Shown: piece by piece, positions 2,167-43,342 of the stretch
How positions within the stretch are numbered: position 1 is the first letter of the stretch
How the letters are laid out: every line of letters starts with the position of its first letter
NCBI GenBank assembly: GCA_016874735.1
Contig: VGTI01000024.1
Coordinates: 1-53,460, forward strand
DNA length: 53,460 nt
DNA from: Deltaproteobacteria bacterium
GTDB taxonomy: Bacteria; Bdellovibrionota_B; Oligoflexia; Oligoflexales; CAIYRB01
Reading direction: 5' to 3'
Position numbers and translations under genes: made by a program
The notes under the pieces: generated by a model
Databases searched by the model: none
What the model was told of the DNA's origin: nothing
What the model saw: only the letters and a program-made list of their open reading frames with translations

Positions 2167-2322
2167 TGATACTCCACAGCGGACTTCACTGAGTAGGCGT
2201 CGCTAGCCGTTCGATTTTGCAATGATGGCTTTCTTATTTTGTACCTCAGTTGTAGGGTCGAAGGCTAGTTGTGGACCATCGCGGAACAACTGGAGAACGA
2301 CAGGACGACAGGACGATCATTC

Positions 2323-5307: not shown

Positions 5308-5313
5308 GACACC

Positions 5314-23523: not shown

Positions 23524-24540
23524 CTACATTGTCTCGCGCGGAGCCTCACCTGAGTACACAGCCGCGGCCCGAATGGGCAAGCTTATTTTCTCAGGTTCAA
23601 GCAGGGCAACAACTGAACGCAGCTCGGGAAATGTGGCAAGCCAGGCGTAAGTCCGCGGCAGCACGCGCCGCGTGAAGTTGAGGCGCCGGAAACTTAGATT
23701 AGCTCCTGGTTCCCTCATGTACTGTGCCACTTCACTCCGCCAAGACGTTAGTCGTGGATGCAGTTCGACTAAAGCGTCGAGTACGGTACGGGGCGATATC
23801 CTAGGATTGACATACCAACCGAAGAGTTTGTGAATGAGACGCGCTTGCAGGCGGCGCAGCCACGGAGGCAGTTTAGTGTAGATCGCAGCGATCAGGATTT
23901 CGTCCAAGGCTACATGTTGCTGCTCCTCGGTCATGTGCAGCTCAAAGACCTGCTTAAAGAGGGGGCTGACGTTTGCTGCCCGATTAAAGCGGCGCGCGAG
24001 AAAAACTGTTCGCTCTTCCAAAAGGAGACTCAACCAGACCCATAGCGGCATCATCACGGGCCACCGCGAGAGCGCCTCACGGAGCCACCACTTGGATTTC
24101 ACGCGGGCAAATGCAAAGCGCCGCGACAGATAGCGCTCTGGTGCTGCCGCCTCGAGTGTCCGCCAAAACATCTCGCTGTGCCTATGTTCCTCGGAGACAA
24201 ACTGGTGGAGATACTGCTCCATACCGGCACTACAGCGGACGTTACGGCTACGGAGCAGACGTTCGACGGTCGGTACGAGCAGGTAATCCTCGAGAAATAT
24301 GAATTGCTCGGCCAGGGCCAAAGCCGTCAGCCTATTGTAGTCACGACGCTCGCGTGGCGAGAGCGCCCCGTAGTGGGGCGTGTGATAAACGTGCGTCAGC
24401 TCCTCAGGCATAAAGTAATGCGACTCGTCGAACCCTTGTGCGAAATTAATTTCCGCCAAGTCAAATTGCGGCGGATTGATCTCAAATCCCTCGGGTAACT
24501 CAAGTGGAATCGGTTTACGCTTGAATAGGCGCTTCAACAT
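23524..24540 (-). CDS. AurF-like di-iron oxygenase
   Basis: A 338-residue protein of the ferritin-like AurF/CmlI N-oxygenase type. The ligand pattern is visible in order: E in LAEQFIFLED, E and H in EEHRHSE, E in LLEERTV, and H, E, H in HMTEEQQH, spaced 0, 4 and 7 as in AurF. The start is ATG 24540 with AGGGATCTCT before it; the longer frame from 24600 lacks an RBS. AurF and CmlI oxidise arylamines to nitro compounds, but several relatives act on other substrates, so the substrate is not assigned. It is basic and Arg-rich (RRFNRAANV, RRLQARLIHKLFG), which is unusual. It is divergent from the 24720 lipoprotein gene across a region with repeated TAGACTAA sites. Confidence 0.76.
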   Translation of the reverse strand: MLKRLFKRKPIPLELPEGFEINPPQFDLAEINFAQGFDESHYFMPEELTHVYHTPHYGALSPRERRDYNRLTALALAEQFIFLEDYLLVPTVERLLRSRNVRCSAGMEQYLHQFVSEEHRHSEMFWRTLEAAAPERYLSRRFAFARVKSKWWLREALSRWPVMMPLWVWLSLLLEERTVFLARRFNRAANVSPLFKQVFELHMTEEQQHVALDEILIAAIYTKLPPWLRRLQARLIHKLFGWYVNPRISPRTVLDALVELHPRLTSWRSEVAQYMREPGANLSFRRLNFTRRVLPRTYAWLATFPELRSVVALLEPEKISLPIRAAAVYSGEAPRETM

Positions 24541-24600
24541 AGAGATCCCTGTCGGTGAGTGATGGAAAATAAGGAGGGGTGACTCATAAAAATGTAACAT

Positions 24601-24646: not shown

Positions 24647-24719
24647 TGCGAAACGCATGCGAGTCATGAGTCAAGGCGTGACACTCGTTGATTCCTGTGC
24701 TTATAGCGAAGGAGTTTCT

Positions 24720-26138
24720 ATGAAGGTGCCTAAGTCAGTCTTGATGCTCTGCGTTTCCATGATGGCGGCCGGGCCCATGGCCTGCAAATCATCGCCTAAG
24801 TCTACTACTGAAAGTGCGGGCAAAAGCGGCGGACGCGTTGGCAATGCTTCTGAAGACCAAGAATCGCCAGAGATGAAAAAGTTTATTGCGCAATTTGTCG
24901 CCATACAGTCTCCCGACGATTTTGCTGCACTTTTGACGCAAATAGATCAAGGTTACGCCAGCTATCCAGCCGATCTTCGTTTTGTCGCAGCACAGCTCAT
25001 TCCCCTCAAGGGTCTGCGCGGCGTGGGTCACCTCGTTCATGACCTCGCTAAACAGTCTAAGGTTGCCGATTCAGTACTCGTGTCATCGCTCATGGCTACG
25101 GCCGCCGGCATCAATCTATTCTCACCACCACCGAGCAACGGTGGCAGCGGGACAGGTGCATGGCTCGCAATTTTCGATTATCTGATGCTGCCATACCAAG
25201 GCATCAATAAGCGCTTTGACTCGGTCACTGAACTACAGGGCTTCCTCTTCAGCCAACTCGTCGGTAACCAAGCGCTAGACACAGCCATCAGCCGCTTGGA
25301 GAGCCTAGCCATCACCAGCGCCAACCCCATCGTGTGGGATAACCGCATCGTCTACGGCGCAGCGGGGTTCAGCGATAGTCAGGACCGTTTTGTCACGATC
25401 ACCGACGTCGAAAAGAATGTCGCGCTGTCGGGCCTCCACAGTATTTACCACAATACTTTGGTGTTCTTGTCGTTTAACAATGACGATATCGTTGCTGCCA
25501 GTGAGAAGCTAGGCAACAAAATGGGCATCAACATTGTGTTCTCACGCACCCCGCAAGGTCTCTCGGCGATGGACCGCGTGGAAGTGGTGAAAAAGTACCC
25601 TAATCTCTTTGCGCGGCTACCAAATGCAACCCAGTATATGCCAGTTGCCTACAATCACCTGAAATCCGCTGTTGATACGATTGCCCTTGCCTGGACAGCT
25701 ACAAAGGCTCGGGGCAATAACGATGTGAACGACTTTCAGCTTCTAAATCCTGCGCGCTTACTCCCTTGGCAGCGCATCAATGACGCATCACTCAGTAACA
25801 TTCAGGCCATGGTCGCCGGCAAACCAGTGCGTAGTGCAGTTACCGGCGAAACCGTGACCATCAACATCCCGGCTTTCTACAGTAATCCACCGGCGAATTT
25901 GCAGGCGTTTATGCCGACGGCGTTCAAACCAGGTAACGAATCCATTATGGTGGCCGGCATGGAGTCTCGTAACTTCCATTACGGTGAAGCCACCCAGTGG
26001 GATCCTGCTGCCTACAAGCCTTACGCCCCTGATGTGAATTCACCGACCGACGTAGCGCGTGTTCTGCGCGTCCTCGGCCAAGTGTGGGGTGGATGGTTTG
26101 CTACCACACCGGGCGTGGCTATTGCCTTTGCAATCTAA
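24720..26138 (+). CDS. Lipoprotein, function unknown
   Basis: A 472-residue lipoprotein. The start is ATG 24720 with AAGGAG 6 bases upstream; the longer frame from 24657 has no RBS. The signal ends AAGPMACKSS (lipobox PMAC, slightly atypical). The mature part is helical with an N-terminal Ser/Lys/Gly linker, then repeated helices (FAALLTQIDQGYAS, LIPLKGLRGVGHLVHDLAKQ) and a late stretch rich in Pro and Asn (INIPAFYSNPPANLQAFMPTAF). The C-terminus ends in a hydrophobic sequence (GVAIAFAI). No family recognised. It is followed by the RND exporter gene; 76 bases separate them, so a joint operon is possible. Confidence 0.72.
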   Translation: MKVPKSVLMLCVSMMAAGPMACKSSPKSTTESAGKSGGRVGNASEDQESPEMKKFIAQFVAIQSPDDFAALLTQIDQGYASYPADLRFVAAQLIPLKGLRGVGHLVHDLAKQSKVADSVLVSSLMATAAGINLFSPPPSNGGSGTGAWLAIFDYLMLPYQGINKRFDSVTELQGFLFSQLVGNQALDTAISRLESLAITSANPIVWDNRIVYGAAGFSDSQDRFVTITDVEKNVALSGLHSIYHNTLVFLSFNNDDIVAASEKLGNKMGINIVFSRTPQGLSAMDRVEVVKKYPNLFARLPNATQYMPVAYNHLKSAVDTIALAWTATKARGNNDVNDFQLLNPARLLPWQRINDASLSNIQAMVAGKPVRSAVTGETVTINIPAFYSNPPANLQAFMPTAFKPGNESIMVAGMESRNFHYGEATQWDPAAYKPYAPDVNSPTDVARVLRVLGQVWGGWFATTPGVAIAFAI

Positions 26139-26214
26139 GCGTACTACCGCTCAAAGACCGGGACAGCACGGACATAGGATCTTAATTCAGGTCCCCGGGC
26201 TAGTCCTGGCCCAC

Positions 26215-28374
26215 ATGTTAAGGTTTGTGACGAGGCATCCGCGCCTCGTCCTAGCCGTGGCCTTAGCGATGTTTCTGCTCCTGCTGCCCGGGGCTGGTAA
26301 GTTGCGCGTACTCGTATCGATAGCAGACATGCTCGATGCTGCGTCGCCGCAAGCCGCACTGCAAACATTGGTGAGGGATGCCTTTCCCGGCGAACATGAG
26401 CTCACCGTGTTGTTTAAGCGGCGCGACGGCGCCGCACTGAACAGTGCCGATCTTTGCGCCATACGCACATGGTCGCGACGCATCGACTTCAGTAGCCAAA
26501 ATATTGACTGGTTGCAGTCTCCCTTTGGCTTTCGCGTCGGCAAAGAAGATGACCAAACGCTTAGGTACCCAGAACTTGTACCTCTTGATTGCGAGCCTGG
26601 CTCACAAGTTGCAGCGGCGTCGCCGCTAGCGCCACTGAACAACTCACCACTCGCTGGTATCGTTGCTAGTCCGAGAGGCGACGCAGTGATTGTTGATCTG
26701 TTCCTGCGCGGCGCAACCGAAGACGGAACTTACGGCAATTTCGATCCGGCCTTGGTGACTCCACTCAAGGCGGACCTTGAGCAAACGTTTACTCCAGACG
26801 GACCGCTTCGTGCCAGTATTGGCGGCAGCGCTGCCTGTAAATGGTATTTTGTTGAGAGTTTAATCAAGGATCAAGGTCTCAATCTACTCGTGATGCTAAT
26901 AGTTTGCGTGAGCGTGCGCCTCATCTTTGGGACGTGGCGCGGCGGCATCATCATGGCCCTAAGCCTAGTTTTTACAACTACCATCTTGTTTGCCCTGATG
27001 GGACTTAGCGGCACACCTGTGGACATCCTATCAAATAGCCTTTTCACTATCGTGGCCTTGGCTACCACAGAGGATTTCATTTATGTATCGCAGGCCGCTC
27101 AGGATGCCCACCCCCACCAAGGATGGCGTACTCCGTTTAGGCGCCAGCTGCTACCGTGCTTTTACACTTCCATTTCAACTGTGATCGGCTTTGGGTCTTT
27201 GTGCCTCTCTGACCTTGCTCCGGTGAGGCGCCTTGGATTTTGGGCTGCTGCCGGCTCGCTTCTGGAATTCGCCGTGATGTTCTTCCTGGTACCGGCAACC
27301 ATGGCCATCTGGCCGAAATTGCGCCTCTACACCGCGAGTCAACTCACACGAACCAGCCGCGGATTACGCGGCATGAGTCGCGTGCAACTACCGCGACCAC
27401 TGTTCCATGGACTCATGATTTTATTTGGCCTTTCGTTTTTTGGTGCTTTGCGAATAGACGTCCAGGATTCGATCGAAAATTTGTGGGACGCCAAACACCC
27501 CTTTAACCGCAGCATCCAGGATCTGCGCGAGCACTTCGGCTTCAGCGGCTCCATCGACTTGGTACTAAGGACGTCAACTAGCACGGCCGATCAGCGCCAA
27601 ATTCTAGAGACCGTGAAAAAAATCCCTGGCGTCGTGAAGGTAGAGGACCCCTACGCCGTGCTCGATTTTGCGTCGCAGGATCTCTCGCCGCTCAGGCGTG
27701 ACATACTCCACCGTGAATTTGCCCTAGCCAAATCGTATGAGCGCTGGTTTAGCTCCAAAGAGCCTTTAGTGCGGGCCACCATCTTTGTCGCCAACGACGA
27801 TATACGATCGCTAAGACCCATACGCGCCCAATTGGACTCGATTTGTAGCGGCGACAAATGCTCGGTAACGGGAGACTTACTATCGTTTGCTGTATTTTCC
27901 GACAGTGTTATCAGGACGCTGATCGAAAGCTTCGCCGTGAGCATGGTGCTGGTCATCGCCTTACTGATGGCACTGTCACGTGCACTCGGCAAATCTGGTA
28001 TAGGCGTCGTCATAGTATCGTCAATCTGGGGCCCTTGCGTGCTCCTCGGGATGCTGCCGCTGGTCATTGGTAGTGTCAACTTCGTGACTTGTCTCTTTGC
28101 CGCGGTGCTAGTCGGCCTGGCGGGTGACAGTGCCGTCCAGTATTTATTCGCGCATCGCCGCGGCAGTCTCACCGACGGGTTAAATCAGCGAGGGCTTGGA
28201 TCGCTCCAGATGACTGTGGTGGCCGTGCTCGCCTCATTTGCCTACCTAACGTCATCTTTCGCGCAACCGCGCGTACTCGGTATCCTCTTTGCCTCTGGTT
28301 ATATCGGCATGCTGATCGGTGACCTTTGGATACTCAAAGGCTGCCTCAGGTCACGCCGTGACCTGACAATTTAA
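26215..28374 (+). CDS. RND/MMPL-superfamily exporter
   Basis: A 719-residue inner-membrane transporter. ATG 26215 starts MLRFVTRHPRLVLAVALAMFLLLLPG as a first helix after a short cytoplasmic end; a longer frame from 26059 overlaps the upstream gene and looks artefactual. The layout is helix 1, a periplasmic loop (about 28-215), five helices (GLNLLVMLIVCVSVRLIFG, IVALATTEDFIYVSQAAQD, STVIGFGSLCLSDL), a second loop (450-610), then the second bundle including SVNFVTCLFAAVLVGLAGDSAVQ. The GLAGDSAVQY region corresponds to the MMPL proton-relay helix. Single-chain RND proteins of this size include HpnN-like and MmpL-like lipid exporters. Its 3' end overlaps the convergent PEP-synthase-like gene by 29 bases. 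Cargo unknown; the neighbouring isoprenoid genes suggest lipid. Confidence 0.85.
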   Translation: MLRFVTRHPRLVLAVALAMFLLLLPGAGKLRVLVSIADMLDAASPQAALQTLVRDAFPGEHELTVLFKRRDGAALNSADLCAIRTWSRRIDFSSQNIDWLQSPFGFRVGKEDDQTLRYPELVPLDCEPGSQVAAASPLAPLNNSPLAGIVASPRGDAVIVDLFLRGATEDGTYGNFDPALVTPLKADLEQTFTPDGPLRASIGGSAACKWYFVESLIKDQGLNLLVMLIVCVSVRLIFGTWRGGIIMALSLVFTTTILFALMGLSGTPVDILSNSLFTIVALATTEDFIYVSQAAQDAHPHQGWRTPFRRQLLPCFYTSISTVIGFGSLCLSDLAPVRRLGFWAAAGSLLEFAVMFFLVPATMAIWPKLRLYTASQLTRTSRGLRGMSRVQLPRPLFHGLMILFGLSFFGALRIDVQDSIENLWDAKHPFNRSIQDLREHFGFSGSIDLVLRTSTSTADQRQILETVKKIPGVVKVEDPYAVLDFASQDLSPLRRDILHREFALAKSYERWFSSKEPLVRATIFVANDDIRSLRPIRAQLDSICSGDKCSVTGDLLSFAVFSDSVIRTLIESFAVSMVLVIALLMALSRALGKSGIGVVIVSSIWGPCVLLGMLPLVIGSVNFVTCLFAAVLVGLAGDSAVQYLFAHRRGSLTDGLNQRGLGSLQMTVVAVLASFAYLTSSFAQPRVLGILFASGYIGMLIGDLWILKGCLRSRRDLTI

Positions 28375-31135
28375 TCGTTCCACGCGCTGCATCGACCTCG
28401 ATTTGATCACCGTTTTGCAAGGCATCCGTAATACCCGAAACACCGACGATCGTCGGAATGCCGAGTTCACGAGCGACGACGGCCGAGTGCGAAAGCAGAC
28501 TACCTCGCTCGATCACCAATGCACTGCACCTGGGGAAGAGCACGACCCAGCCTGGATCCGTACTGCGCGCGACGAGCACCTCACCCTGGACTTCTGCAGC
28601 GTCTTTAAAGGTTTTTGCCACCAGGGCTTTACCCGTGACCATGCCGGGGTAGCAGGGGGTACCTTGCCAACTCGCCCCCTGAGGCAGGGGGGAGTTTAAT
28701 GCCGCGCCGGAAGCCACTGTTACGCGCGGCATCGTCGCTGCTGGGATCCCTTGCGTCACGAAACGCTCAGGCGGTGTGGGCTCCGAGGCGTAGCCGACAT
28801 ATTCCTGCCGGCGCAACTTGGCCACGCTGGCTAGGTCGGCTGAGGCACCGCGGCCGTGGACGGCATCGCCGAGCTCCTCCACTGTGAGATAGAAGACATC
28901 ATGAACCTCCGCTATGAGATGATTCGCGGCAAGTTTAGCGCCCATCGCTCTGAAGATTCTGCGCGCAACGGAAAATGTACGGCCGCGGACAAGGCGCAAG
29001 CGCTCGCGATCAGCGATCGCCTTGGCCGTATGCGTGATGAGGAACTTCAAAATGTGACGTTTCATGAATGGCAGATGACTCAGACCATCCTGATGGTCAC
29101 GATGATGACTCTGTACCTCTGGCATGGGAGAAGGCCGTTGACTGCCGTCTTGGCGCCGCAACTGATCGACATAGGCACGCAGCGTCTGCATGACCGGCGT
29201 CGGGTCTATGTAAAGATCATCGGCCTCAAGTTTTAACTCTTCGGGGCAGCGGAAGCCAAATGCGGCAAGGTAGGCCTCGACCTCTAAACGTAGCGGCACT
29301 AGGTCTGCCGTGGTCCGTAGCTGGTGCATAGCTTGATTCAGTGATACTTGGCTCAGCCAGGTGAGACCTGGCAGATCTCCATTGTAAATGCGATGCGCCA
29401 CGTCTCGCAGACGCTCTACAGGCTCAGCAGAGCCCAAAGTACCGTGTCCCCTCACCACTTGATTTACGTCAAAAGACGCACCCAACCATTTAGCACCCAG
29501 GCGGCGGAGCGACCCAAAAAGTAGCATGCATCGCATATCGTTGATGATGGGCGCCTGCCAGTTGGAGAGAAATTCCTGAGAGAGATCCTCGTACGCAGCC
29601 AATTGAGCACCGACACTCAGCGCCATGTAGTCAGTAGCCATCGCCTGGTCGCAGGCAGCATTTACGCGTGCCTCAAATTGCGTCATGCGCTTCTTTAAAG
29701 TGAATAACCGCAGCATTGCGATTGAGGCCAAGTACATCTTACGGAGAGGTCTGGGTCTATAGGGAGACCGCACGCCAGCAAAAAAAGCTTCCGCCGACTC
29801 AGCGCCTAGCTCTTCCTTAACGCCCATCATAGTTTCCATGAAACCGGCACTACGTTCGGCATTAGGAAACAAACTGAGCAGTCGGTACCAATTGAGCAAA
29901 TTGTAGTACACATGCCCCCGCAGTAGCCCGAGCATATTGCCAAATAACTCACGCTCCGCGTTGATGATGGATTCAGGTACGCCCATGACGCGGGCGAATT
30001 CCTCGTACACACGCCGGTAAGCACGACGTGCGTGCGTGAAGGTTAGTGGCGCGACTAGACCCGAGTAACTCTCAACGATGTTGGCATTGTCCCAGAGAAG
30101 TTTTGCTCCGTCGGTGGCAGGTATGCCTGCGGTCACCGAGGCAGTTGCGGCTTCAGGCCCGTGTGCCCGCGCCATCAAGGGAGCGACTGCGGTCACCGGA
30201 CGTGCCTGGAGGACGTAAAGCTGTCGGTTATGGTAACACCACTCCATGTCGATCGCCTGAGATGGGCCTTGAACGAGTGCAGCCGCGGCAAAATCAAGCT
30301 CGATATCAAGAGCCGTTTGACTGACGTCACTTAGAAGCACTGGCGTCAATGCCGTCGCCATGTGCTGATAGACGGGCAGCGCGGCGACGGAGGTACCACT
30401 ACCATCGTTGCATCGATGTGCTGCTTCTTTTTTTGCGGTGACGACCTTCTGGACGTTAGTGTTACTGCGATCCACCCAGCCGCGATCGGCACACAGGTCT
30501 CCACCGACCAAACCTTCGCCAAGTCCAAAAACTGCCTCTACCAGAACGTGATGAGATTCCGTGCCGGTTGGATCCAAGCTGAATGCGACCCCCGAAATAG
30601 AGGCGTCTATCATCTCTTGGATGACTATAGCCATGCGCGGGCGCTCAGTGATACCGAGCGTCCTCCTGTACGCCTCGACGGCGACGGAGCTTGCAGACGC
30701 ATGCACACTTTTTATGGCAGCGCCAAGTTCTTTGGCACCACGCACATTGAGACAGGAACTAAACATACCGGCAAAACTTTGCTCCCGCCCGTCTTCGCAA
30801 GTAGCACTGGAACGCACGGCGAGAGACGCTTCCCCCATGCCACGCTGATCGCAGGCTTGACGCACCGACGCCAGAAGACGCGTAGGATCAATAGCACCGC
30901 GCTCCAAGGCCTCCTGTACCTCGACAGGAATGACGAAGAAACGGGGCACGCGGTAGCCAAGCAATGCCAGTCGGGCAAGGGAAACGGCTTTACCACCAAA
31001 TCGCTCGGGCGATGCAACGATCTGCGTATAGTCTGTCACTACTAAATCACGCGCGTCCACGGCAGTGACGCCTGCAGTCGCGGTGGTAGCAGTTAAGTCC
31101 GGGTGCTGCAAATCGGCAATTTCGCGTTCAGTCAC
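28346..31135 (-). CDS. PEP-synthase-like phosphotransferase (PPDK-N, linker, PEP-utilizer His domain)
   Basis: A 929-residue three-part protein. A strong RBS (AGGAGGAG, 7 bases) precedes GTG 31135, so I use this start and not 31201, which overlaps the upstream gene. Residues about 45-330 are an ATP-grasp PPDK N-terminal domain (GGKAVSLARL, VRSSATCEDG, FAGMF, AVFGLGEGLVGG, LYVLQARPVT). A long middle part begins NIVESYSGLVAPLTF, as in rifampin phosphotransferase (Rph)-type proteins. The C-terminal swivel domain has the phosphoryl-carrying His in ERGSLLSHSAVVAREL. So phosphorylation of an unknown acceptor with ATP (Rph-like) or PEP formation are both possible. It lies 44 bases downstream of the ligase-UbiA gene on the same strand, a likely operon. 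Confidence 0.83.
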   Translation of the reverse strand: MTEREIADLQHPDLTATTATAGVTAVDARDLVVTDYTQIVASPERFGGKAVSLARLALLGYRVPRFFVIPVEVQEALERGAIDPTRLLASVRQACDQRGMGEASLAVRSSATCEDGREQSFAGMFSSCLNVRGAKELGAAIKSVHASASSVAVEAYRRTLGITERPRMAIVIQEMIDASISGVAFSLDPTGTESHHVLVEAVFGLGEGLVGGDLCADRGWVDRSNTNVQKVVTAKKEAAHRCNDGSGTSVAALPVYQHMATALTPVLLSDVSQTALDIELDFAAAALVQGPSQAIDMEWCYHNRQLYVLQARPVTAVAPLMARAHGPEAATASVTAGIPATDGAKLLWDNANIVESYSGLVAPLTFTHARRAYRRVYEEFARVMGVPESIINAERELFGNMLGLLRGHVYYNLLNWYRLLSLFPNAERSAGFMETMMGVKEELGAESAEAFFAGVRSPYRPRPLRKMYLASIAMLRLFTLKKRMTQFEARVNAACDQAMATDYMALSVGAQLAAYEDLSQEFLSNWQAPIINDMRCMLLFGSLRRLGAKWLGASFDVNQVVRGHGTLGSAEPVERLRDVAHRIYNGDLPGLTWLSQVSLNQAMHQLRTTADLVPLRLEVEAYLAAFGFRCPEELKLEADDLYIDPTPVMQTLRAYVDQLRRQDGSQRPSPMPEVQSHHRDHQDGLSHLPFMKRHILKFLITHTAKAIADRERLRLVRGRTFSVARRIFRAMGAKLAANHLIAEVHDVFYLTVEELGDAVHGRGASADLASVAKLRRQEYVGYASEPTPPERFVTQGIPAATMPRVTVASGAALNSPLPQGASWQGTPCYPGMVTGKALVAKTFKDAAEVQGEVLVARSTDPGWVVLFPRCSALVIERGSLLSHSAVVARELGIPTIVGVSGITDALQNGDQIEVDAARGTIKLSGHGVT

Positions 31136-31179
31136 GTTTTGACTCCTCCTGTAGACTCCTAAAGTCTTGGAGCTTGGGT

Positions 31180-33435
31180 TTAGACGAAAAACAACATCCA
31201 AAGCTGCCCCAAGCTGAGCAGCGCAGCAGAACCTTCGACAGCTTGAAATTTTGCAGGAGCTTTAAACCATGCCGCAAGCGAGACAAAAAATAGGGCGCTA
31301 AGCGGGATTATCGTGGCCCAAGTACCAAGCATCACATGCGTCGCGATGATGACCGCAGCACAGATCAGCAGCATTGTCAGGGTCCGCCGGCGGCCGTAGA
31401 TCTGGAGATAAGTGTCTTTGCCCTCGGGACTGCGAGGATCCAGTTTGCGTGCGATTTCGTAGGCCATGGAGCCGGCGAAGTTGGCGACGATAAAAGCGAC
31501 AGCTACGGGCGAGGGCAAGCGCGCGGCAGCAACTGCCGTGGCTATGGGCACTAGGTACATGGGGACCAAAAGTGCCTGATGGGACAGAGCACTGGCGAGC
31601 GGCCACCTTTTGAGGACGTCACCGAGATAAAACTCGCGCTCCATCATGAGCAGATAACCAACAGCCAGCAGTGCCGCAAGTCCCCCGTAGAACCCCCCGG
31701 TCACTCCCGTGATAAACCCCAAAGCGACCAACGCAAATAAAAGCGCATCGACGGCACTGCGCATCTCCAGCTTAGTTATGAGGCCGCGAGGCAAAGGGCG
31801 GGCGGGCTCTAGGGCTAGATCCTTGAGTAGATCTTTGCGCTCATCCATGAGCCTCACCGTGATGAGGAGTAGGAAAATGATGGCAAAATGTAGCACTACT
31901 AAATAGCTCGGTGTAGCTGTGCTTGCGGCCAGGGCAGCACCTAACGACGGCCCCGCCGCAACGAAGGCAAGGACGGGCAGCGGCGCCCGCTCTTTGAAGA
32001 ACTGATGCCAACGCCGCACCATAGAGTGCGGACGCAGCGACGCTGCGCGGTTGATGCGGGAGCGATGACGACGTTCAAAGATAACGGGGATAGACGCACC
32101 ATCGGCAATTTCTGGACAGGCAGCGCGGATCGATGGTAGCGCCGCCTTCACCCCCTCACCGAGGGCAATAAGGGAGCCATTGATCGCGCGCGTGACAAAA
32201 GCTCGCGAATGACCGAGTACGCGGTACAGGCGTTGCTCAAGAGCGAACTCATCGACGGGCTGGTTCGTACGTCCCAGAAAATACCAACCCTCAGGCTGGA
32301 CATCGATGCGATCGGCAGTCCAGTGCCATCTTTTGCCAGCGGCATCTGTGCGCTTGTGACGGGCATCGGCAGCGGATGCCTTAATATAAGAGCCATTAAC
32401 ATTAGGGCCGCTGACCCATAGGCCGTCATCGCTACTGGCGTGATCGATAAACTGAAAAGGACTACCAATGTAGCGAACTTGAATTTCATCACGCTCACGC
32501 GCAAAGTGGAGCGCATCAACCATGTCGGCCATAGCAATGGGCTCGGCCTCACTGCCGCCATAAATATTTGTCATCTTAGCCATAGGCCAACGGGCCAGCG
32601 CCTCCTGCACGAGGCTCCGGTCTGGCGAGGCACCACCAACGTAGATGTGCCTGAGGCTATCAAAACCCGTCGTCGCCTTGGTCGCGGTGAGCAGGGCGCG
32701 GAGGAAAGCCGGATTAGTCGACAGCGTCCGTGGCTGATAAGCGCCAATCCTGTCGCCAAGGGAGCGGAGTGTCCGCTGGCGCCAATCGTTGCCGACCATG
32801 ATAGCGCCGCGACCCGACATGAGATGCAAGATGGTGATGCCGGGTAGTACCGCCAAGTCAGGCTCGGGATATGGATCACGGCGTCCATCTTCGGTCAGAA
32901 GACGCACCATGTCGGTCGAAAACTTATGACTGCGCACAATGCCCTTGGGCTTACCGGTGGACCCTGAACTAAACACAACGATCGCAGGATCATCGGGCGC
33001 GCAAGCTTCAACCACCAAAGTCTTGGGGCTCGCAGCCCGCAAAACCTGCCCTTCGACAACTACTGACTTGATGGAGCGAAGCGCACGGAAACGGCGACTC
33101 CACCACCAGCCTACCCGGTCGACCAGCAAAAAAGCCGGACTTTGTTCCCGAATGATAGCGGCTACGTCGGTGGCGTCTAGCCAGGGTTCGACCAGCATAA
33201 CCCGGCCACCAAGGCCAATCACGGCCGTCATCGCCGCGTAAAGAGGGGGCCTCGGGAGGGCGACAAGAATAGCACAGTCGCCGGCCTTAAAGCCCTTCTG
33301 GATTAAGTCTTGCTGCACGGTGGCAGCCCCTGTGCCCAGTGCACCAAAGCTTACCGGTCCCGAGTTTTGCTCCCAAAGGGCAAGCTTTGCGGGCAGATTC
33401 CTGCTCCATGACGCAATGGCTTCGATACAGTTCAC
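31180..33435 (-). CDS. AMP-forming ligase fused to UbiA-type prenyltransferase
   Basis: A 751-residue fusion. Residues 1 to about 470 are an adenylate-forming domain: the P-loop FSSGSTGKPKG near 155, NIYGGSEAEP, and YFLGRTNQPV of the C-terminal subdomain. No carrier domain is present. After the helical join (SMVRRWHQFF) come about eight membrane helices of UbiA type, with a first Asp-rich motif VRLMDERKDLLKDLA followed by ARPLPRGLIT, and a second motif EIARKLDPRSPEGKDTY. Both motifs match the RxxDExKDxxxD and ExARK...GxDTY patterns of a UbiA branch. The enzyme could activate an acid and transfer a prenyl group to it. GTG 33435 has AAGGAG at 6 bases; ATG 33441 would sit directly on the RBS. 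Divergent from the GNAT-like gene. Confidence 0.84.
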   Translation of the reverse strand: MNCIEAIASWSRNLPAKLALWEQNSGPVSFGALGTGAATVQQDLIQKGFKAGDCAILVALPRPPLYAAMTAVIGLGGRVMLVEPWLDATDVAAIIREQSPAFLLVDRVGWWWSRRFRALRSIKSVVVEGQVLRAASPKTLVVEACAPDDPAIVVFSSGSTGKPKGIVRSHKFSTDMVRLLTEDGRRDPYPEPDLAVLPGITILHLMSGRGAIMVGNDWRQRTLRSLGDRIGAYQPRTLSTNPAFLRALLTATKATTGFDSLRHIYVGGASPDRSLVQEALARWPMAKMTNIYGGSEAEPIAMADMVDALHFARERDEIQVRYIGSPFQFIDHASSDDGLWVSGPNVNGSYIKASAADARHKRTDAAGKRWHWTADRIDVQPEGWYFLGRTNQPVDEFALEQRLYRVLGHSRAFVTRAINGSLIALGEGVKAALPSIRAACPEIADGASIPVIFERRHRSRINRAASLRPHSMVRRWHQFFKERAPLPVLAFVAAGPSLGAALAASTATPSYLVVLHFAIIFLLLITVRLMDERKDLLKDLALEPARPLPRGLITKLEMRSAVDALLFALVALGFITGVTGGFYGGLAALLAVGYLLMMEREFYLGDVLKRWPLASALSHQALLVPMYLVPIATAVAAARLPSPVAVAFIVANFAGSMAYEIARKLDPRSPEGKDTYLQIYGRRRTLTMLLICAAVIIATHVMLGTWATIIPLSALFFVSLAAWFKAPAKFQAVEGSAALLSLGQLWMLFFV

Positions 33436-33561
33436 TGCCATCTCCTTGCCTAGGCCTTGGAGCTAATCGGTACAACCGCGAATAATCGTACTAATGTCGG
33501 AAAAGTTTATGATAATCTCACAAGCAAAGACATGCAATCGACGAAGGTGGGTAAACCCGAT

Positions 33562-34680
33562 ATGAATATCGAGAGCCTAAGCGCGGCTATGGATCCTAGT
33601 CGCTTTCGCTTCGCCTTCACATCGATCCGTGACCAAAGTAGCTGCGATTTATATCTGAAAGACCATGCAGCCTACCTTGAGCTGGCCATGGATCCCTGCT
33701 GGCACCCCATGGAATACTGGTTAGCCTGTGATGGAGAACAACCTATCGGCCGCGTCGGGGCCCGCATATCGTCCGTCGATCCAACACGAGGCTACATAGG
33801 ATTACTCGCTTGTGACGTCGAAGCACCGCGTAGCGAGCGCCTAGCCAAATATGTCGCGTTACTGGAGACAGCACTTAGGTGGCTGGGAGCGCAAGGCGTG
33901 ACCGCAGTGTTTGCTCCTGTCGACTGCAACACTTGGCTACGTTACCGCGTCATCTCTGGTGTCGCCCCTCAGGATGGCGCCGACGGAATCGAGGCGCCAT
34001 TCGGGTGGGAGCCGCCCTTCGATCCTGATTTGGAGGCAGCACTTAAAGCGACGGGATTTGGCGCACCGGAAACCATCTTTGGTGATAAGTCGATGCAGGG
34101 ACGCTACCATACGCGAGTTTTTCGCAGCGTTTTTCGTCAAGCCATGCGCGTCCTGGAACCACATCATAAAAGAGCTCTGCGCGACGGATATACGTTCCGG
34201 TCCTTTGGCGCAGATGGACGCTCGTTTGACGATGAATTGGCGCTACTGCACGGTATTGCTATCCCGAGCTTTAGCCGGCAATTTTTATTTGAACCCATAG
34301 ATTTAGGCCTTTTTAAGCGCATTTATAGGAGTGGGGCCGGTCAACTGGACTTGTCACCGTCGGCTTTTATCCTTCCGCCAGAGGACGGTAGCGGTGCCGT
34401 CATTCCCGTCGGATTTCTGTTCGGTTTTGTCGATCGCGGTTACGTCGTCGTGAAGACTGTCGCGGTACAGCCCGATCTAGTGAGCCGGACTAAAGGCCGC
34501 AAATGGTCAGCAGCAAGCGCCCTCCTTTACCACGCACTGCAATACGGAGATGAGCAAAATTTGCGCGGCGGCATTGCGGCCCTTGTTCACGACGACGGTA
34601 GCGCCAATACCATCGAAAAGTGGCTGGCCTGGGCCAGCGACTGGACGCGGCACTATGAGTTATTTGCACGCGCGATTTAG
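33562..34680 (+). CDS. GNAT-like acyltransferase, function unknown
   Basis: A 372-residue protein. I use ATG 33562, with AAGGTGGG upstream; ATG 33532 is possible, and a start at 33457 would extend into the divergent promoter. The N-terminal half resembles a GNAT fold (QPIGRVGARISSVDPTRGYIGLLACDVE, then LLETALRWLGAQGVTAVFAPVD). A second, similar block follows (VIPVGFLFGFVDRGYVVVKTVAVQPD, SALLYHALQYGDEQNLRGGIAALVHDDG), so a tandem-GNAT layout is likely. The acyl donor and acceptor cannot be read from the sequence. It is followed 33 bases later by the HMG-CoA reductase fusion, so the two are probably one operon. Confidence 0.68.
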   Translation: MNIESLSAAMDPSRFRFAFTSIRDQSSCDLYLKDHAAYLELAMDPCWHPMEYWLACDGEQPIGRVGARISSVDPTRGYIGLLACDVEAPRSERLAKYVALLETALRWLGAQGVTAVFAPVDCNTWLRYRVISGVAPQDGADGIEAPFGWEPPFDPDLEAALKATGFGAPETIFGDKSMQGRYHTRVFRSVFRQAMRVLEPHHKRALRDGYTFRSFGADGRSFDDELALLHGIAIPSFSRQFLFEPIDLGLFKRIYRSGAGQLDLSPSAFILPPEDGSGAVIPVGFLFGFVDRGYVVVKTVAVQPDLVSRTKGRKWSAASALLYHALQYGDEQNLRGGIAALVHDDGSANTIEKWLAWASDWTRHYELFARAI

Positions 34681-34713: not shown

Positions 34714-37551
34714 ATGCGAGCTACCCAAGACCGACGCTCTAAAACTAGAATCGAAGCGCGCCCAGATCTTGGCTGGAAGGTCGTATTCCATCATGATGAA
34801 GTCAGGGTGGAGCTAGCTATAGTCGATATCGCGGAATCTGGCCTACGCCTCGTCACCCGCGAGCCACTCAGCGCCTGGCAAAAGAGCAAGCTACTCGAGT
34901 TGCAGCAAGCGACTTTGTGGAAGGCGGACTATGCCGCGCACCGGCTGGCACTCACCGTTATCGCCTGCCGCGAAGCCCGCGAAAGCAAGGGTGCGAGTAC
35001 AGGTATCGATACGGAAACGGGCACATGGGTGCACTGCCACTGTCCCGACAGGTCAAGTCAAAATATACTCTGGCAAATCTTGCTCGAAAATCGTCACCCC
35101 GAACTTGGACGACGCGGCGCAGACACCCTAGCTCTTGGGCCTGACGACCGTATCCCTGAGCGCGGAATCTATACTGAGGCCGCCCGCGTCAACAGGCTTT
35201 CCTTTATCGAGAACAAAATAGGCTCTAGTTTAGAGACGATTCGCAAATCAGCTCTGGACGCACACCAATTAGTTGGTAATATCGAGAATCATATTGGCAG
35301 CGTAGAGGTGCCGATCGGCTTAGTTGGCCCTCTACTATTTAACGGCCAGCATGCGAGGGGAGAAATCTATGCTCCCTTTGCCACCTCCGAGGGAGCCTTG
35401 GTCGCCTCAGCCTCGCGCGGGGCTTTGCTGCTTAGCCTCGCCGGCGGCGTCAAAACCAGAACCATCAATCAGCGGATGACGCGCGTCCCGATGTTTGTCA
35501 TGGACTCCCTCGGTAGTGCTGTGGTCTTCAGCGAGTGGCTCAAAGATCACATTACGGGTTTGCAAGAGGCCGTCGCCCAGGTGTCCACGCACGCGGCACT
35601 AACCAGTATCGACATCACACTGTCTGGTCGGTCTATTCACGCAAGCTTTGTCTACGCCACAGCCGATGCTGCTGGCCAGAACATGACGACCGCCGCCACG
35701 TGGCACGCGTGCCAGTGGGCCCTCGCTGAGGCAAGCAAGCTTTCGGACATTACGGTGGAAAAATTTGTCATCGACTCCGGCCTTAGCGGTGACAAAAAGG
35801 TCAACTTCAAATCCTACCTGGAGGGACGCGGCACACGCGTGATCGCTGAAGCGTTTATTCCCGGCGATATCCTCGAAAAAGTGATGAAAGTGAGTCCAGA
35901 CACGTTGGCTGGTTATTTCAATTCCGGTATGGTTGCGCTGGCTCAAGCTGGTGCCATTGGCGCCAACATCAATGTCTCCAACGCCGTCGCCGCCATGTTC
36001 GTGGCGACGGGTCAAGATATCGCCTGCGTGCACGAGTCATCTCTGGCAAATTTTTACGTAGAGAGAACCGACGACGGCATTTACACTTCGATGCACCTAC
36101 CGACCCTGATTGTTGGTACCGTAGGCGGTGGGACCTCATTACCCAGCCAATCTGAATGCCTGAAAATCATGGACTGCCTTGGATCCGACAAAGCCGCCCG
36201 CTTTGCCGAAATTATCGCCGGCTACTGTTTAGCACTCGATCTATCGACGTCGTCTGCCCTTGTCGGCGGGACCTTCGTCCGGGCGCATGAGCGTCTTGGG
36301 CGGAATCGACCGGTCAAGTGGCTCACATCTCAAGACCTCGACCGCAATTTGATTCAGCAAGTGGTACAAAATCACAATCAAGATCAGTATCGGGACATGA
36401 TCATCGCAGATGTCAGGCCGGGGGACCCCGTCGATACGGGTGATGCAATTATCTCGGAGCTCGCTGCGCGTAATGCCAAAAAATTGATCGGCATCCTACC
36501 TTATGAGCTGACCTGTCACGACACCGCTGGCGCCGCGCATAAACTCGAAGTCGTTGTTAAATCGAAAGCAACCGACAAAGAGGTAATCCTCATTGCGAGC
36601 AAAATGGCTGGTATGTGCAACGCCACACTGGGACGTATCTACGACGATTTCAGGTACCGTAGTGAGTCCCATCTCTGTCACTTGAAGGAGCTTGCTATCT
36701 ACGGTCAGTCCGATAGCCGCTTTAAAGATCATACGCCGCAAGTGTTTGGCATCCATCAAGACGACAGGCGTGAAGCCTATCTGGTCATCATGGAGCGCCT
36801 GCAAAATCTCCAGTTAATGGGTACCGTGGCACGCCCCTATGCTTGGCGCGAGGAGCATATAGAGGCTGCTATATCAGGCCTGGCTGCGCTGCATAGCGTT
36901 TGGCTGGGACGCGAGGCTGCATTGATGCAGACACCTTGGATAGGCCACACGGCCTCGGCAGCCGATATGACGGAGCGACGCGCCCTATTCCGAGAGATGT
37001 TACAGCACGGTCATGTGGAGTTTCCGCGTCTTATGACGAGCGACCGTTTAACCTGCAATCTCGACCTACTCAATAACGTTGATCGGTGGTGGGACGAAAT
37101 CGAACGCATGCCGCGCACACTCATACACAATGACTTTAACCCCCGTAATATCGGACTGCGGGAGGATCAGGGCAAGTTCCGGCTATGCGCATTTGACTGG
37201 GAACTAGCTACCTTGCATCTACCGCAGCGAGACCTGGCTGAGTTCCTAGCCTTCGTCACTACAGAGGAGACGACGCCACAGCAAATTGAGGCTTTTGTCG
37301 AACTCCATCGCACAAAGCTCGAGGAATATAGTGGCACGACACTGCCGCGTCCCGCATGGCGCCGTGGCTACGAGCTTTCGCTTTTTGACTTTGGCATTAA
37401 TCGCCTGGCCTATTATGTGATGGCTCATACGTTTAGGCAGTACGAATTTTTGGAACACCTGGTGACCAATCATCAGAGGTTGATGGATTTGGCTGCAGCT
37501 GGGCAAAAGCGTGTGGCCGTTGAGACTATGGCTGGGAGATTGACCTGGTAA
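34714..37551 (+). CDS. PilZ-like / class I HMG-CoA reductase / APH-like kinase triple fusion
   Basis: A 945-residue fusion. Residues 1-85 look like a PilZ domain (RRSKTRIEARPD then VDIAESGLRL). Residues about 150-535 are class I HMG-CoA reductase, the mevalonate-forming step, with ENHIGSVEVPIGLVGPL, the Glu of TSEGALVAS, the Lys of SGDKKVNFK, DAAGQNM, the Asp of TGQDIA, GTVGGGTSLP and the His of VRAHERLGRN. All four catalytic residues known from the class are present. Residues about 560-945 are an APH/choline-kinase-like domain: VVVKSK, then HNDFNPRN near 805 (HxDxxxxN) and CAFDWELA near 826. RBS GGAG is 7 bases before the ATG. I know of no protein with this architecture. c-di-GMP control through PilZ is inference; the PilZ RxxxR is present. 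Confidence 0.85.
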   Translation: MRATQDRRSKTRIEARPDLGWKVVFHHDEVRVELAIVDIAESGLRLVTREPLSAWQKSKLLELQQATLWKADYAAHRLALTVIACREARESKGASTGIDTETGTWVHCHCPDRSSQNILWQILLENRHPELGRRGADTLALGPDDRIPERGIYTEAARVNRLSFIENKIGSSLETIRKSALDAHQLVGNIENHIGSVEVPIGLVGPLLFNGQHARGEIYAPFATSEGALVASASRGALLLSLAGGVKTRTINQRMTRVPMFVMDSLGSAVVFSEWLKDHITGLQEAVAQVSTHAALTSIDITLSGRSIHASFVYATADAAGQNMTTAATWHACQWALAEASKLSDITVEKFVIDSGLSGDKKVNFKSYLEGRGTRVIAEAFIPGDILEKVMKVSPDTLAGYFNSGMVALAQAGAIGANINVSNAVAAMFVATGQDIACVHESSLANFYVERTDDGIYTSMHLPTLIVGTVGGGTSLPSQSECLKIMDCLGSDKAARFAEIIAGYCLALDLSTSSALVGGTFVRAHERLGRNRPVKWLTSQDLDRNLIQQVVQNHNQDQYRDMIIADVRPGDPVDTGDAIISELAARNAKKLIGILPYELTCHDTAGAAHKLEVVVKSKATDKEVILIASKMAGMCNATLGRIYDDFRYRSESHLCHLKELAIYGQSDSRFKDHTPQVFGIHQDDRREAYLVIMERLQNLQLMGTVARPYAWREEHIEAAISGLAALHSVWLGREAALMQTPWIGHTASAADMTERRALFREMLQHGHVEFPRLMTSDRLTCNLDLLNNVDRWWDEIERMPRTLIHNDFNPRNIGLREDQGKFRLCAFDWELATLHLPQRDLAEFLAFVTTEETTPQQIEAFVELHRTKLEEYSGTTLPRPAWRRGYELSLFDFGINRLAYYVMAHTFRQYEFLEHLVTNHQRLMDLAAAGQKRVAVETMAGRLTW

Positions 37552-40274: not shown

Positions 40275-43172
40275 ATGGGCAAGTTTGTACTACGGATAAA
40301 AAACGGAGCGATCGCCGGAACGATCGTAGGCATAGTCTCAGCGACGTCCTTAGCGACGCAGTCTAAAGCTGGAGCCCGCGACCTATCCTACGGTGGCCGC
40401 CTAACTGATAATAACGGCTCAGCGCTCAGTGGACCTGTGGATCTTCGTATCCAGTTTTATACTGCTGCCTCTGGTGGCACAGCATTACTTGGCGCACCCC
40501 TTCCGTATGATGCGACACTTCTTGATGACGGGGTCTTTCAAATTAACATCCCAGCAAGCGCTGTAAGCTCCGCGACTTTTATGGACGGCACCAGTGAGAC
40601 TTGGATCGAGGTCAAAGACGCGACCAACAATGTCACCTATCCCCGGCAGCAGCTGAATGCCGCGCCACTTGCATTGAAGGTGCCAGTTGATACCAATGCC
40701 CTATTCTTCGATACAAACGGTAAATTGACTATAAACCCAGCATTCGGAACGAGCAAAATAGCTGGATTCGACGTGACACCTGCCGCGCCAAGCCCAGGCC
40801 AGGTGCTTGCGTGGGACGGGGTTAGTTCATCTTGGAAGCCTGCAAACGTCTCAGCTAGTGTGTCGGGGACGATTACCGGAAATCTAGTCGTCCAGGGGAA
40901 CAACAGTACCGCAAATCGCTTGATCTTGAATGACAAGGGCAGTTCAAACTCCGTAGCGATCAAAGCGCCTGACGATCTAGCCGCAAGTGTGGTCATGACC
41001 CTACCAGGGGACTCTGGCGCCTCGGGTCAAGTGATGGCAACTGACGGCGCGGGTAACCTGCATTGGATGTCTGGCGTAGCACCGACGGGAAATGCTGGTG
41101 GGGATTTAACAGGAAGTTTCCCGAATCCGATGCTGACAGTGACCGGTGTGGTATCGGGCACCTACGCCAAGGTGAGTGTGGACAATAAAGGTAGAGTATA
41201 CGGGGGACATAGTCTGGCAGTGCCTGATATCCCGCCCCTTCCTGCGTCTCAGATCGCCGCTGGGACATTCGCTGTCTATAACGGTGGGACCGGTTCTAGT
41301 AGCTTCACCAACAACGGTGTCATCCTGGGTAACGGAGCCGGCAATCTCTTCAGCACGGCAGCTGGTCAAGCCTACCAATCGCTGGTAGTGCCGAGTAACG
41401 GCGGGACACCACAATTTGGCGCAGTCAACCTGGCGCAAATGAACGCCGTAACGGGTATTCTGCCAAAAAACCACGGGGGAACAGGAATAATTTCCAATGC
41501 TATTTATCCAATAACCGGGATGATCACTACCGATGTGAGTGCTGCAACGTTAACTAATAAGACGTTAGCGTCGCCGATTATCACTAGTGCAACCATTAGC
41601 GGGGCTACGTTGATTACGGGTGCAACTGCGATCGAAACGAACGGAACTTTAACTTCCGGAAGTATAACGGCTAACGGGAACGTTAGCATTCGCGGTAACG
41701 GAACCACAGCTCATAGACTCGTGTTCAATGATAAAGGCACTACCCACCATATATCGCTTAGGGCGCCTGACACGCTAACCTCGTCGGTATCCTATATTTT
41801 GCCCTCGTACGACGGAACCCCCGGACAAAATCTTGTGACAGACGGATCCGGAAGTCTGTATTGGGTTAACGGGGCAGCTCCCACTGGACCAGCTGGCGGC
41901 GATTTGACGGGTTTCTTTCCGAATCCTTTGCTGACAAGCACAGGCGTTACATCTGGCACCTACACAAAAATTGCCATAGATTTGAAAGGCCGCGCTTTTG
42001 CCGGTTTTCCTTTATCTCCATCCGATATACCTCCACTACCCGCGTCCGTGATTAGCCACGGGCAGTTACCAGTCGCCGTGGGTGGTACGGGTACGTCTAG
42101 CTTCACAAACAACGGGGTCATTATCGGCAACGGCACGGGAAACCTCTTTTCAACACCATCCGGCACTGCTTATCAGAGCCTTACCGTGCCACCGTGGGGT
42201 GGGCCCCCACAATTCGGACCTGTGGTTCTGTCTCAGGCATCCGCGGTATCGGGCGTCCTGCCAACCAGCGCCGGTGGCACGGGACTAGCGTCGGTTGCTA
42301 TATTCCCAACGAGCGGTACCGTTGTGACCCTTGATGCGCAAGAGACGTTAACAAACAAGACTCTCACATCATCGCTGATTATGGGTGGTACGATCACTCA
42401 GACGAAGATCGATGCTCCTGGAATACGTATTTCGAATCTAGATTCCACCATGGCTAGTGCCTTGAGTTACGAGGGGGGAGGTGACGCAAAGAAATGGGCC
42501 GTTGGAGTAGGTGGAGCGATGGATAACTTCTCGCAGATCCAGAATAGTTATTTCGTGATGGACAAGGACACAAACAATGTCCGCTTGTTAATCGATTCTA
42601 GTGGCAACACTGGCATCGGGACCACCTTTGCTCCGCAAAAACTCACTGTAGCTGGGGGTGCCTATTTATCTGGGAATGTTGGGATTGGGACTACTATGCC
42701 CATGGCAACGTTGTCGCTTGGTAACAGCGTAGTGAACAACAAATTGGCAATATATGAAGACAGCACCAACTACTACGGATTCGGCGTACAATCCGGCCGC
42801 ATGGTAATCAACGCCAACAGCTCGGAGAAAATGACAATCGTCGGTACCAGTGGCAACGTCGGTATCGGCATCAGCAATCCTGTAGCAAGCCTAGACGTCG
42901 GAGGAACCATAAAACTAGGGTCGGTTGGGGTACCGTTCAATTCCATGGGTGCATGCACAACAACTAGTGTAGCTTTCTCGCAGTCAGCCACATCGACAAA
43001 CTGCATGGGCATTCCCGGTGGTGCGGCTGTGTTCTGCTCAGCACCAGCGATTTACCTTGGTGCGGGTAATGGTCTTTATTGCCGCGCGCCTAGCGCAAAC
43101 ACAATAGAGTGCAACACATTCAATGCAGCTGCATCTCAGTCAACGTATAAATGTCTGTGGATCGTGCCGTGA
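40275..43172 (+). CDS. Fibre-like surface protein, duplicated module, six-cysteine C-terminal cap
   Basis: A 965-residue secreted protein with signal peptide (GTIVGIVSATSLATQSKA). Residues 32-150 hold a beta-rich head (ARDLSYGGRLTDNNGSAL, QINIPASAVSSATFMDGTSE) shared almost exactly with the next gene. Two large repeats follow, about residues 201-445 and 466-696, each with GNxxxxGNxxxANRLxxNDKG, LPxxDGxxGQ, GGDLTGxFPNPxLT, SSFTNNGVIxGNGxGNLFST and GGTG. Then GNTGIGT-type turns occur. The end has six cysteines (GACTTT, TNCMG, FCSAP, YCRAP, ECNTF, KCLWIVP) and no S74 chaperone. The architecture resembles tail-fibre/adhesin shafts. RBS GAGAGGTGG precedes the ATG. Confidence 0.8.
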   Translation: MGKFVLRIKNGAIAGTIVGIVSATSLATQSKAGARDLSYGGRLTDNNGSALSGPVDLRIQFYTAASGGTALLGAPLPYDATLLDDGVFQINIPASAVSSATFMDGTSETWIEVKDATNNVTYPRQQLNAAPLALKVPVDTNALFFDTNGKLTINPAFGTSKIAGFDVTPAAPSPGQVLAWDGVSSSWKPANVSASVSGTITGNLVVQGNNSTANRLILNDKGSSNSVAIKAPDDLAASVVMTLPGDSGASGQVMATDGAGNLHWMSGVAPTGNAGGDLTGSFPNPMLTVTGVVSGTYAKVSVDNKGRVYGGHSLAVPDIPPLPASQIAAGTFAVYNGGTGSSSFTNNGVILGNGAGNLFSTAAGQAYQSLVVPSNGGTPQFGAVNLAQMNAVTGILPKNHGGTGIISNAIYPITGMITTDVSAATLTNKTLASPIITSATISGATLITGATAIETNGTLTSGSITANGNVSIRGNGTTAHRLVFNDKGTTHHISLRAPDTLTSSVSYILPSYDGTPGQNLVTDGSGSLYWVNGAAPTGPAGGDLTGFFPNPLLTSTGVTSGTYTKIAIDLKGRAFAGFPLSPSDIPPLPASVISHGQLPVAVGGTGTSSFTNNGVIIGNGTGNLFSTPSGTAYQSLTVPPWGGPPQFGPVVLSQASAVSGVLPTSAGGTGLASVAIFPTSGTVVTLDAQETLTNKTLTSSLIMGGTITQTKIDAPGIRISNLDSTMASALSYEGGGDAKKWAVGVGGAMDNFSQIQNSYFVMDKDTNNVRLLIDSSGNTGIGTTFAPQKLTVAGGAYLSGNVGIGTTMPMATLSLGNSVVNNKLAIYEDSTNYYGFGVQSGRMVINANSSEKMTIVGTSGNVGIGISNPVASLDVGGTIKLGSVGVPFNSMGACTTTSVAFSQSATSTNCMGIPGGAAVFCSAPAIYLGAGNGLYCRAPSANTIECNTFNAAASQSTYKCLWIVP

Positions 43173-43272
43173 ATACAAACATATTGCATTGCTCAAATTT
43201 TTTACATAGTCAACTTTAAGACTATATAAGTATAGGTAAACACCTGATCTCCCGGTAATATTTATTATCTCC

Positions 43273-43325
43273 TAAAGCCCTGTGTGCACATATCCGATGA
43301 CCTCATGCCAGACACGACGGTCTGG
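43273..43325 (+). promoter_or_regulatory. Duplicated FliA-like promoter and leader hairpin of second fibre-like gene
   Basis: TAAAGCCC (43273-43280), 12 bases, TCCGATGA (43293-43300), mirroring the promoter at 40205-40232. Downstream, CCAGAC (43308-43313) pairs with GTCTGG (43320-43325) across a 6-base loop, ending just before the RBS AAAGGGG. A hairpin with 6-base loop sits in the leaders of the 13934 and 14649 genes too. Confidence 0.58.
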
Positions 43326-43342
43326 TGGTAAAGGGGTATGCC

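Follow-up and report, generated by a model that had tools for sequence, protein, structure and literature searches.

HMG-CoA reductase (HMGR) is among the best-studied enzymes, and its annotation is taken everywhere to mean mevalonate. The window analyzed here, a stretch of 53,460 nucleotides from a member of the phylum Bdellovibrionota_B, encodes a class I HMGR-like reductase flanked in the same chain by a PilZ-like domain and an APH-like kinase. What does a reductase of this fold make when it is joined to a kinase and a putative regulator?

A single reading frame joins three domains

The fusion gene spans exactly positions 34714 to 37551 of the forward strand. It starts with an ATG that has a GGAG a few bases upstream and encodes 945 residues in a real and uninterrupted open reading frame for which an intact orthologue exists. 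On the whole protein, Pfam places HMG-CoA_red at residues 160-530 (E = 1.3e-104) and APH at residues 674-864 (E = 4.3e-10), with no match to PilZ in the same scan. The order of PilZ, reductase and kinase proposed in a preliminary description of this DNA is correct according to Pfam, homologues and fold taken together. Its further remark that no described enzyme with this order was known held for the open papers searched, the full texts of which yielded no description of the fusion or of its gene cassette. The fusion combines known families in a new domain arrangement, and it would be considerably more surprising if its substrate proved to differ.

The preliminary description had also raised the concern of a frameshift or an assembly error joining separate genes. 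Such a join is ruled out by one uninterrupted homologue and five further intact fusions. The homologue, found in a different genome of the same genus (L001/L033, hereafter the sister), covers residues 1-933 at 69% identity. Further intact HMGR-kinase fusions are present in relatives at 44% (L028), 35% (L029), 36% (L030) and 31% (L031) identity, and another on a Streptomyces plasmid (L037, 41% identity), where its neighbours are NRPS genes and both UbiA and PPDK are absent. Besides the window copy, six intact reductase-kinase reading frames, five from relatives and one from the Streptomyces plasmid, have these two domains in the same order, and the fusion is therefore not an assembly artefact. 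The contig scan used narrow peptide patterns and found one close relative, and the spread outside the phylum is to be read as a lower bound.

We judged selection from codon-position differences between the window and the sister. Third positions have diverged by 60-63% (63% in the HMGR domain), yet protein identity is 87% in the HMGR domain and 67% in the kinase, with 38% in the PilZ-like domain, which argues that selection acts mainly on the enzymes.

Some members of the family are, or may be, degenerate. The reductase active site of a fusion homologue at L024:7939-10341 is interrupted by a single in-frame TGA, which reflects either a recent pseudogene or a sequencing error. Two paralogues (L026:7525-10200 and L027:4363-6924) have a PilZ-like N-terminus, but catalytic residues are missing from their HMGR regions and from their kinase regions alike. 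The L026 paralogue has a PEP-synthase-like neighbour that lacks the His motif, and the L027 paralogue adjoins an MMPL-LolA fusion; both are possible regulatory pseudoenzymes.

The reductase domain has an altered HMG pocket

The HMGR domain (residues 160-530; positions 35191 to 36303, forward strand) is 32-40% identical to known class I HMGRs (human HMGCR, archaeal 6hr7), whose fold it shares. The full catalytic set claimed earlier was found, with E226, K361, D435 and H525 equivalent to human E559, K691, D767 and H866. We compared the aligned active-site columns of the fusions with those of four mevalonate-type class I controls, namely the HMGRs of human, of Arabidopsis, of an archaeon and of a Streptomyces mevalonate cluster. 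The catalytic residues together with R590, D690, K692 and N755 are common to both sets.

The HMG pocket is where the two sets part. In the window protein, S684 is replaced by D354, A751 by I419 and H752 by N420, and Ser/Gly stands in place of K735. The replacements of S684 by D/E, H752 by N and A751 by I/V are found in all nine catalytically intact fusion-type reductases (among them L024 and the unfused L025), whereas S, K, A and H are kept at S684, K735, A751 and H752 in 4/4 controls. K735 is mostly lost among the fusion-type reductases, in a region where the alignment slides by one column and the neighbouring column is basic in L030 (Lys) and L025 (Arg). K735 forms a salt bridge with the carboxylate of the HMG moiety, and S684 likewise has a role in the pocket (PMC9500038). 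Because an acidic residue in place of S684 would lie beside this carboxylate site, HMG-CoA appears to be an unlikely substrate. The absence of K735 has a parallel in class II HMGRs, which also lack it yet use HMG-CoA.

On the NCBIfam NADP-HMGR model the fusion falls below the cut-off (286 vs 442 bits), and a small tree places L025 and L026 in one group with the fusions (88/83), separate from the class I HMGRs of mevalonate type (93/91). Replacement of S684 by D/E is also seen in standalone HMGR-like proteins of Vibrio and Roseinatronobacter, and a wider group of non-mevalonate HMGRs may therefore exist. Standalone HMGR-like proteins with changed pocket residues were observed in non-mevalonate contexts at L038, L039, L040 and L041 (Alteromonas, Vibrio, Sinorhizobium), the Sinorhizobium gene adjoining an acyl-CoA carboxylase and an indolepyruvate ferredoxin oxidoreductase.

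The fusion further differs from known class I HMGRs in its attached PilZ-like and kinase domains and in the location of its gene outside the mevalonate operon. Another HMGR is encoded on contig C35 (L032) of this genome, where its neighbours are a diphosphomevalonate decarboxylase (MDD), a kinase of the GHMP family and a member of the FMN_dh family that is probably the type 2 isomerase IDI-2. The fusion gene is not located with MVK, PMK, MDD or IDI genes, and no MDD or IDI was seen near any fusion.

The C-terminal domain belongs with small-molecule kinases

Linker, N-lobe and APH-like kinase make up residues 535-945 (positions 36316 to 37548, forward strand). The kinase-like C-terminus of the preliminary description scores above the Pfam cut-off for APH (PF01636, 40.2 bits vs 23.2), and the HNDFNPRN (residues 805-812) and DWE (residues 828-830) motifs reported there were found. 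K616 of the N-lobe, E659, the H805xD807xxxxN812 loop and the Mg-binding D828WE are invariant in eight active members. The kinase groups with the APH/EcKL/choline-kinase-like small-molecule kinases. A PDB search with a profile built from the eight active regions gave ACAD11 as the best match (E = 2.7e-7, catalytic loop/DWE region only). A search with the single sequence gave no match, and a model of the kinase alone, made without an alignment, reached a pLDDT of 35 and was not used.

In ACAD10 and ACAD11, a kinase domain joined to an acyl-CoA dehydrogenase phosphorylates 4-hydroxyacyl-CoAs at their 4-hydroxy group (PMC12440821). By analogy, these proteins are a working precedent for a kinase and an acyl oxidoreductase in one chain: like the fusion, they carry an APH-family kinase on the chain of an acyl-CoA oxidoreductase, although the oxidoreductase fold and the domain order of the fusion are different.

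The fusions of Streptomyces L037 and of L024 each overlap a gene for a P-loop protein. The L037 P-loop protein is thymidylate-kinase-like and is similar to that of L024 (E = 7e-5). Thymidylate-kinase-like enzymes add a phosphate to a monophosphate, and the donor used by UbiA enzymes is usually a diphosphate. If the overlapping P-loop kinase adds a phosphate to a monophosphate, a diphosphate would therefore be a reasonable next step.

The N-terminal domain is PilZ-like and optional

Residues 1-138 (positions 34714 to 35127, forward strand) contain R8xxxR12 and D38-I-A-E-S-G43. The PilZ domain of the preliminary description is sub-threshold for PF07238 in the fusion itself (13.3 vs 22.5 bits, E = 0.11, residues 1-143) and was recovered through its relatives and its predicted fold. 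Four of five homologous N-termini match PF07238 (best E = 0.0024), and an alignment of five very divergent N-termini has eight invariant columns, which include R8, R12, D38, G43 and L44. The window protein has RxxxR and DIAESG (DxAxxG, with Ala for the usual Ser), and the sister has the canonical DLSESG. A relaxed RxxxR...DxAxxG pattern matches about 3% of shuffles. The short motif alone was dropped as evidence for this reason, and homologues and fold were used instead. The model of residues 1-138, built with the sister sequence, has a PilZ beta-barrel fold (pLDDT 77, pTM 0.70), and Foldseek ranks MrkH and YcgR highest for it among PDB structures (E = 4e-5 to 1e-4, probability 1.00).

At the level of predicted fold and homologues, the N-terminal domain is PilZ-like. 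It shares the predicted fold, RxxxR and D..xxG with the c-di-GMP receptors MrkH and YcgR, and unlike them it scores below the Pfam cut-off, has DxAxxG for DxSxxG and is attached to a metabolic enzyme. The genome yields 5 matches to GGDEF and at least 15 to PilZ, so c-di-GMP signalling exists in this organism. Binding of c-di-GMP by the modelled domain is plausible. The domain has no counterpart in L030, L024 or the Streptomyces L037 protein and is degenerate in L028; it is therefore an optional add-on.

The fusion lies in a conserved acyl-ligase and prenyltransferase cassette

Six genes precede the fusion. These encode, in order, an AurF-like di-iron oxygenase (23524 to 24600, reverse strand), a 493-residue protein of no Pfam family (24657 to 26138, forward), an MMPL/RND-type exporter (26059 to 28374, forward), a PEP-synthase-like protein with PPDK_N ATP-binding and phosphohistidine domains (28346 to 31201, reverse), an AMP-ligase (OleC/PRK09274-like) fused to a UbiA-type prenyltransferase (31180 to 33441, reverse) and a GNAT-like protein (33457 to 34680, forward). 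The oxygenase (Pfam AurF) has homologues in cassettes L047, L048 and L057 and is a probable cassette member. Cassettes L045 and L046 contain 51-53% homologues of the exporter (Pfam MMPL), the annotated start of which is probably too early, and beside MMPL 61% homologues of the 493-residue protein. The GNAT-like protein, a weak match to Pfam Acetyltransf_1 with a true start probably about 100 nt downstream of 33457, has a 66% orthologue in L001 and relatives in other cassettes. The PEP-synthase-like protein has the architecture of rifampin phosphotransferase and PigC, a similarity of domain make-up that concerns this neighbour and not the fusion.

Both the PEP-synthase-like protein and the ligase-UbiA protein have orthologues across the phylum. 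The His of the former and the DExKDxxxD of the latter are kept in the fusion cassettes of the window, L028, L029, L030 and L031; the sister UbiA also keeps DExKDxxxD, and the sister PEP-synthase gene is cut by the contig end. Among 58 genomes of the phylum, about 20 have the cassette core of PPDK-like protein, AMP-ligase and UbiA. The UbiA type was counted in 19 genomes and the PEP-synthase type in 20, and one is seldom present without the other. Some loci carry extra genes for DUF3419 (BtaA-type), LolA, ABC or P450. The genome of the window also encodes another AMP-ligase-UbiA fusion, accompanied by a DUF3419 gene but not by HMGR-kinase (L056; contig C90, 1-9857).

An alphaproteobacterial plasmid (Roseinatronobacter) carries an unfused HMGR with S684 replaced by E beside UbiA, PPDK, DUF3419, GNAT and AMP-ligase genes. 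This cassette occupies L043:18208-26192 and the record origin, with the HMGR-like gene spanning the record start, and includes a 439-residue membrane protein. The latter was considered as a dolichol/phytol kinase from its motifs; PF01148 and PF01940 gave no match, and this reading was set aside.

Other features of the window include a UvrD-type helicase/nuclease adjoining a PD-(D/E)XK protein in an AddAB-like arrangement (2269-8802) and two related, tandem, long repeat-rich proteins (40275-47152), the second with a C-terminal S74 chaperone domain comparable to those of phage tail fibres. A transglutaminase-elicitor protein is encoded 12 kb from the fusion (49541-50653); in the sister its gene (L001:7222-8325) adjoins the fusion.

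Some cassettes without the fusion carry another reductase and a lipid kinase

We sampled fourteen UbiA-type loci that lack the fusion. Six of them (L049, L051, L052, L053, L054 and L058) contain an operon of a lipid kinase, an extended SDR and an acyl-thioester reductase, usually with DUF3419, and the other eight carry neither this set nor the fusion. The lipid kinase is DAGK-type (DgkB/YegS, E = 1e-27), the SDR is related to NRPS reductase domains and epimerases, and the reductase matches PigE (4ppm, E = 4.5e-36) and acyl-ACP reductase (E = 1.9e-17). At no locus do the fusion and this set occur together. A single genus shows all three states, with the fusion in G000 and G004, the reductase, SDR and lipid kinase in G001 and G003, and neither in G002 and G005.

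Zero overlap would arise by chance in about 8% of cases (6 vs 6 among about 20 genomes), and the count is confounded by phylogeny. The pattern is suggestive, being what would be expected for non-orthologous replacement of acyl-thioester reduction and alcohol phosphorylation. The alternative set belongs to the same kind of cassette; its proteins, unlike the fusion, are encoded by separate genes unrelated to it in sequence and would probably form an aldehyde first and the alcohol via the SDR. At L051, L052, L053, L054 and L058 we also observed a gene for a 246-249 residue formyltransferase-like protein, judged by eye from HHGLLP, as well as an alpha/beta hydrolase-like region that either adjoins the AMP-ligase or is fused to it.

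A candidate acyl-thioester reductase and alcohol kinase

From these sequence comparisons we consider it fairly probable that the fusion combines an HMGR-fold acyl-thioester reductase and an alcohol kinase in one chain that serves an exported lipid-like product, and that PilZ is an optional regulatory part. The HMGR-fold domain would reduce an activated acyl-thioester, probably not HMG-CoA, to a primary alcohol using four electrons, and the fused APH-type kinase would phosphorylate that alcohol. The alkyl phosphate would feed the UbiA prenyltransferase-type chemistry of the neighbour, possibly after a second phosphorylation from monophosphate to diphosphate by a P-loop kinase of the L037/L024 type. 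The acyl-adenylating enzyme, the PEP-synthase-like and GNAT-like proteins and the MMPL exporter would serve the same exported product, and the PilZ-like domain would be an accessory regulator through which c-di-GMP probably acts. For this pathway we infer the acyl substrate, the order of steps, the second phosphorylation, the c-di-GMP control and the product class. Several points count against it: the eight loci with neither reductase-kinase set, the chance level and phylogenetic confounding of the zero overlap, the sliding alignment at K735, the use of HMG-CoA by class II HMGRs that lack K735, and the setting of the Streptomyces copy away from UbiA and PPDK. Its most specific form is a c-di-GMP-gated bifunctional enzyme in which the HMGR fold has become a general acyl-thioester-to-alcohol reductase, supplying UbiA with a non-isoprenoid, acyl-derived alkyl phosphate (then diphosphate) in an exported lipid pathway common to members of the phylum; this form is tentative and less likely than not.

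We favour a non-mevalonate role because of the separate mevalonate operon, the changed HMG pocket and the cassette of acyl activation, UbiA and PEP-synthase-like genes. The main alternative is a mevalonate-supply enzyme converting HMG-CoA to mevalonate and then to 5-phosphomevalonate, in which the APH-like domain would be a non-GHMP mevalonate kinase producing additional isoprenoid precursor for UbiA. The complete class I catalytic set fits this reading, the UbiA prenyltransferase of the cassette needs a prenyl diphosphate, and the overlapping P-loop kinase of L024 and L037 could act as an animal-type phosphomevalonate kinase. However, the genome already has its own mevalonate operon, pocket substitutions are present in 9/9 active members, MDD and IDI are seen near no fusion, and other cassettes have a generic acyl-thioester reductase and lipid kinase. 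We therefore regard mevalonate supply as unlikely and do not favour the suggestion in the preliminary description that the attached kinase phosphorylates mevalonate.

Eukaryotic HMGR is regulated by phosphorylation, by AMPK, and the kinase domain might by the same token phosphorylate a protein, the reductase itself, with kinase and PilZ both serving as regulatory modules. The sharing of one chain by reductase and kinase and the presence of a PilZ-like domain agree with this, but the kinase family is one of small-molecule kinases with ACAD11 as nearest match, the kinase is conserved in the PilZ-less fusions L030 and L037, and a lipid kinase is present at other cassettes, which makes a protein kinase improbable. 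That the fusion is a scaffold or pseudoenzyme with a functional PilZ and relic enzyme domains, as L026 and L027 might suggest in having lost catalytic residues in both domains while keeping the PilZ-like N-terminus, is very improbable given the catalytic residues kept in the window copy and all other fusions and an HMGR domain 87% identical to the sister at 63% third-position divergence, against 38% for PilZ.

If the proposed acyl-thioester reductase and alcohol kinase is borne out, the HMGR fold would have been recruited to other acyl-thioesters, and automatic annotations of such proteins would mislead. The PilZ-like domain would connect c-di-GMP directly with a biosynthetic enzyme. The cassette, with its acyl ligase, UbiA, PEP-synthase-like protein and exporter, suggests that this little-studied phylum makes a class of product not yet characterised.
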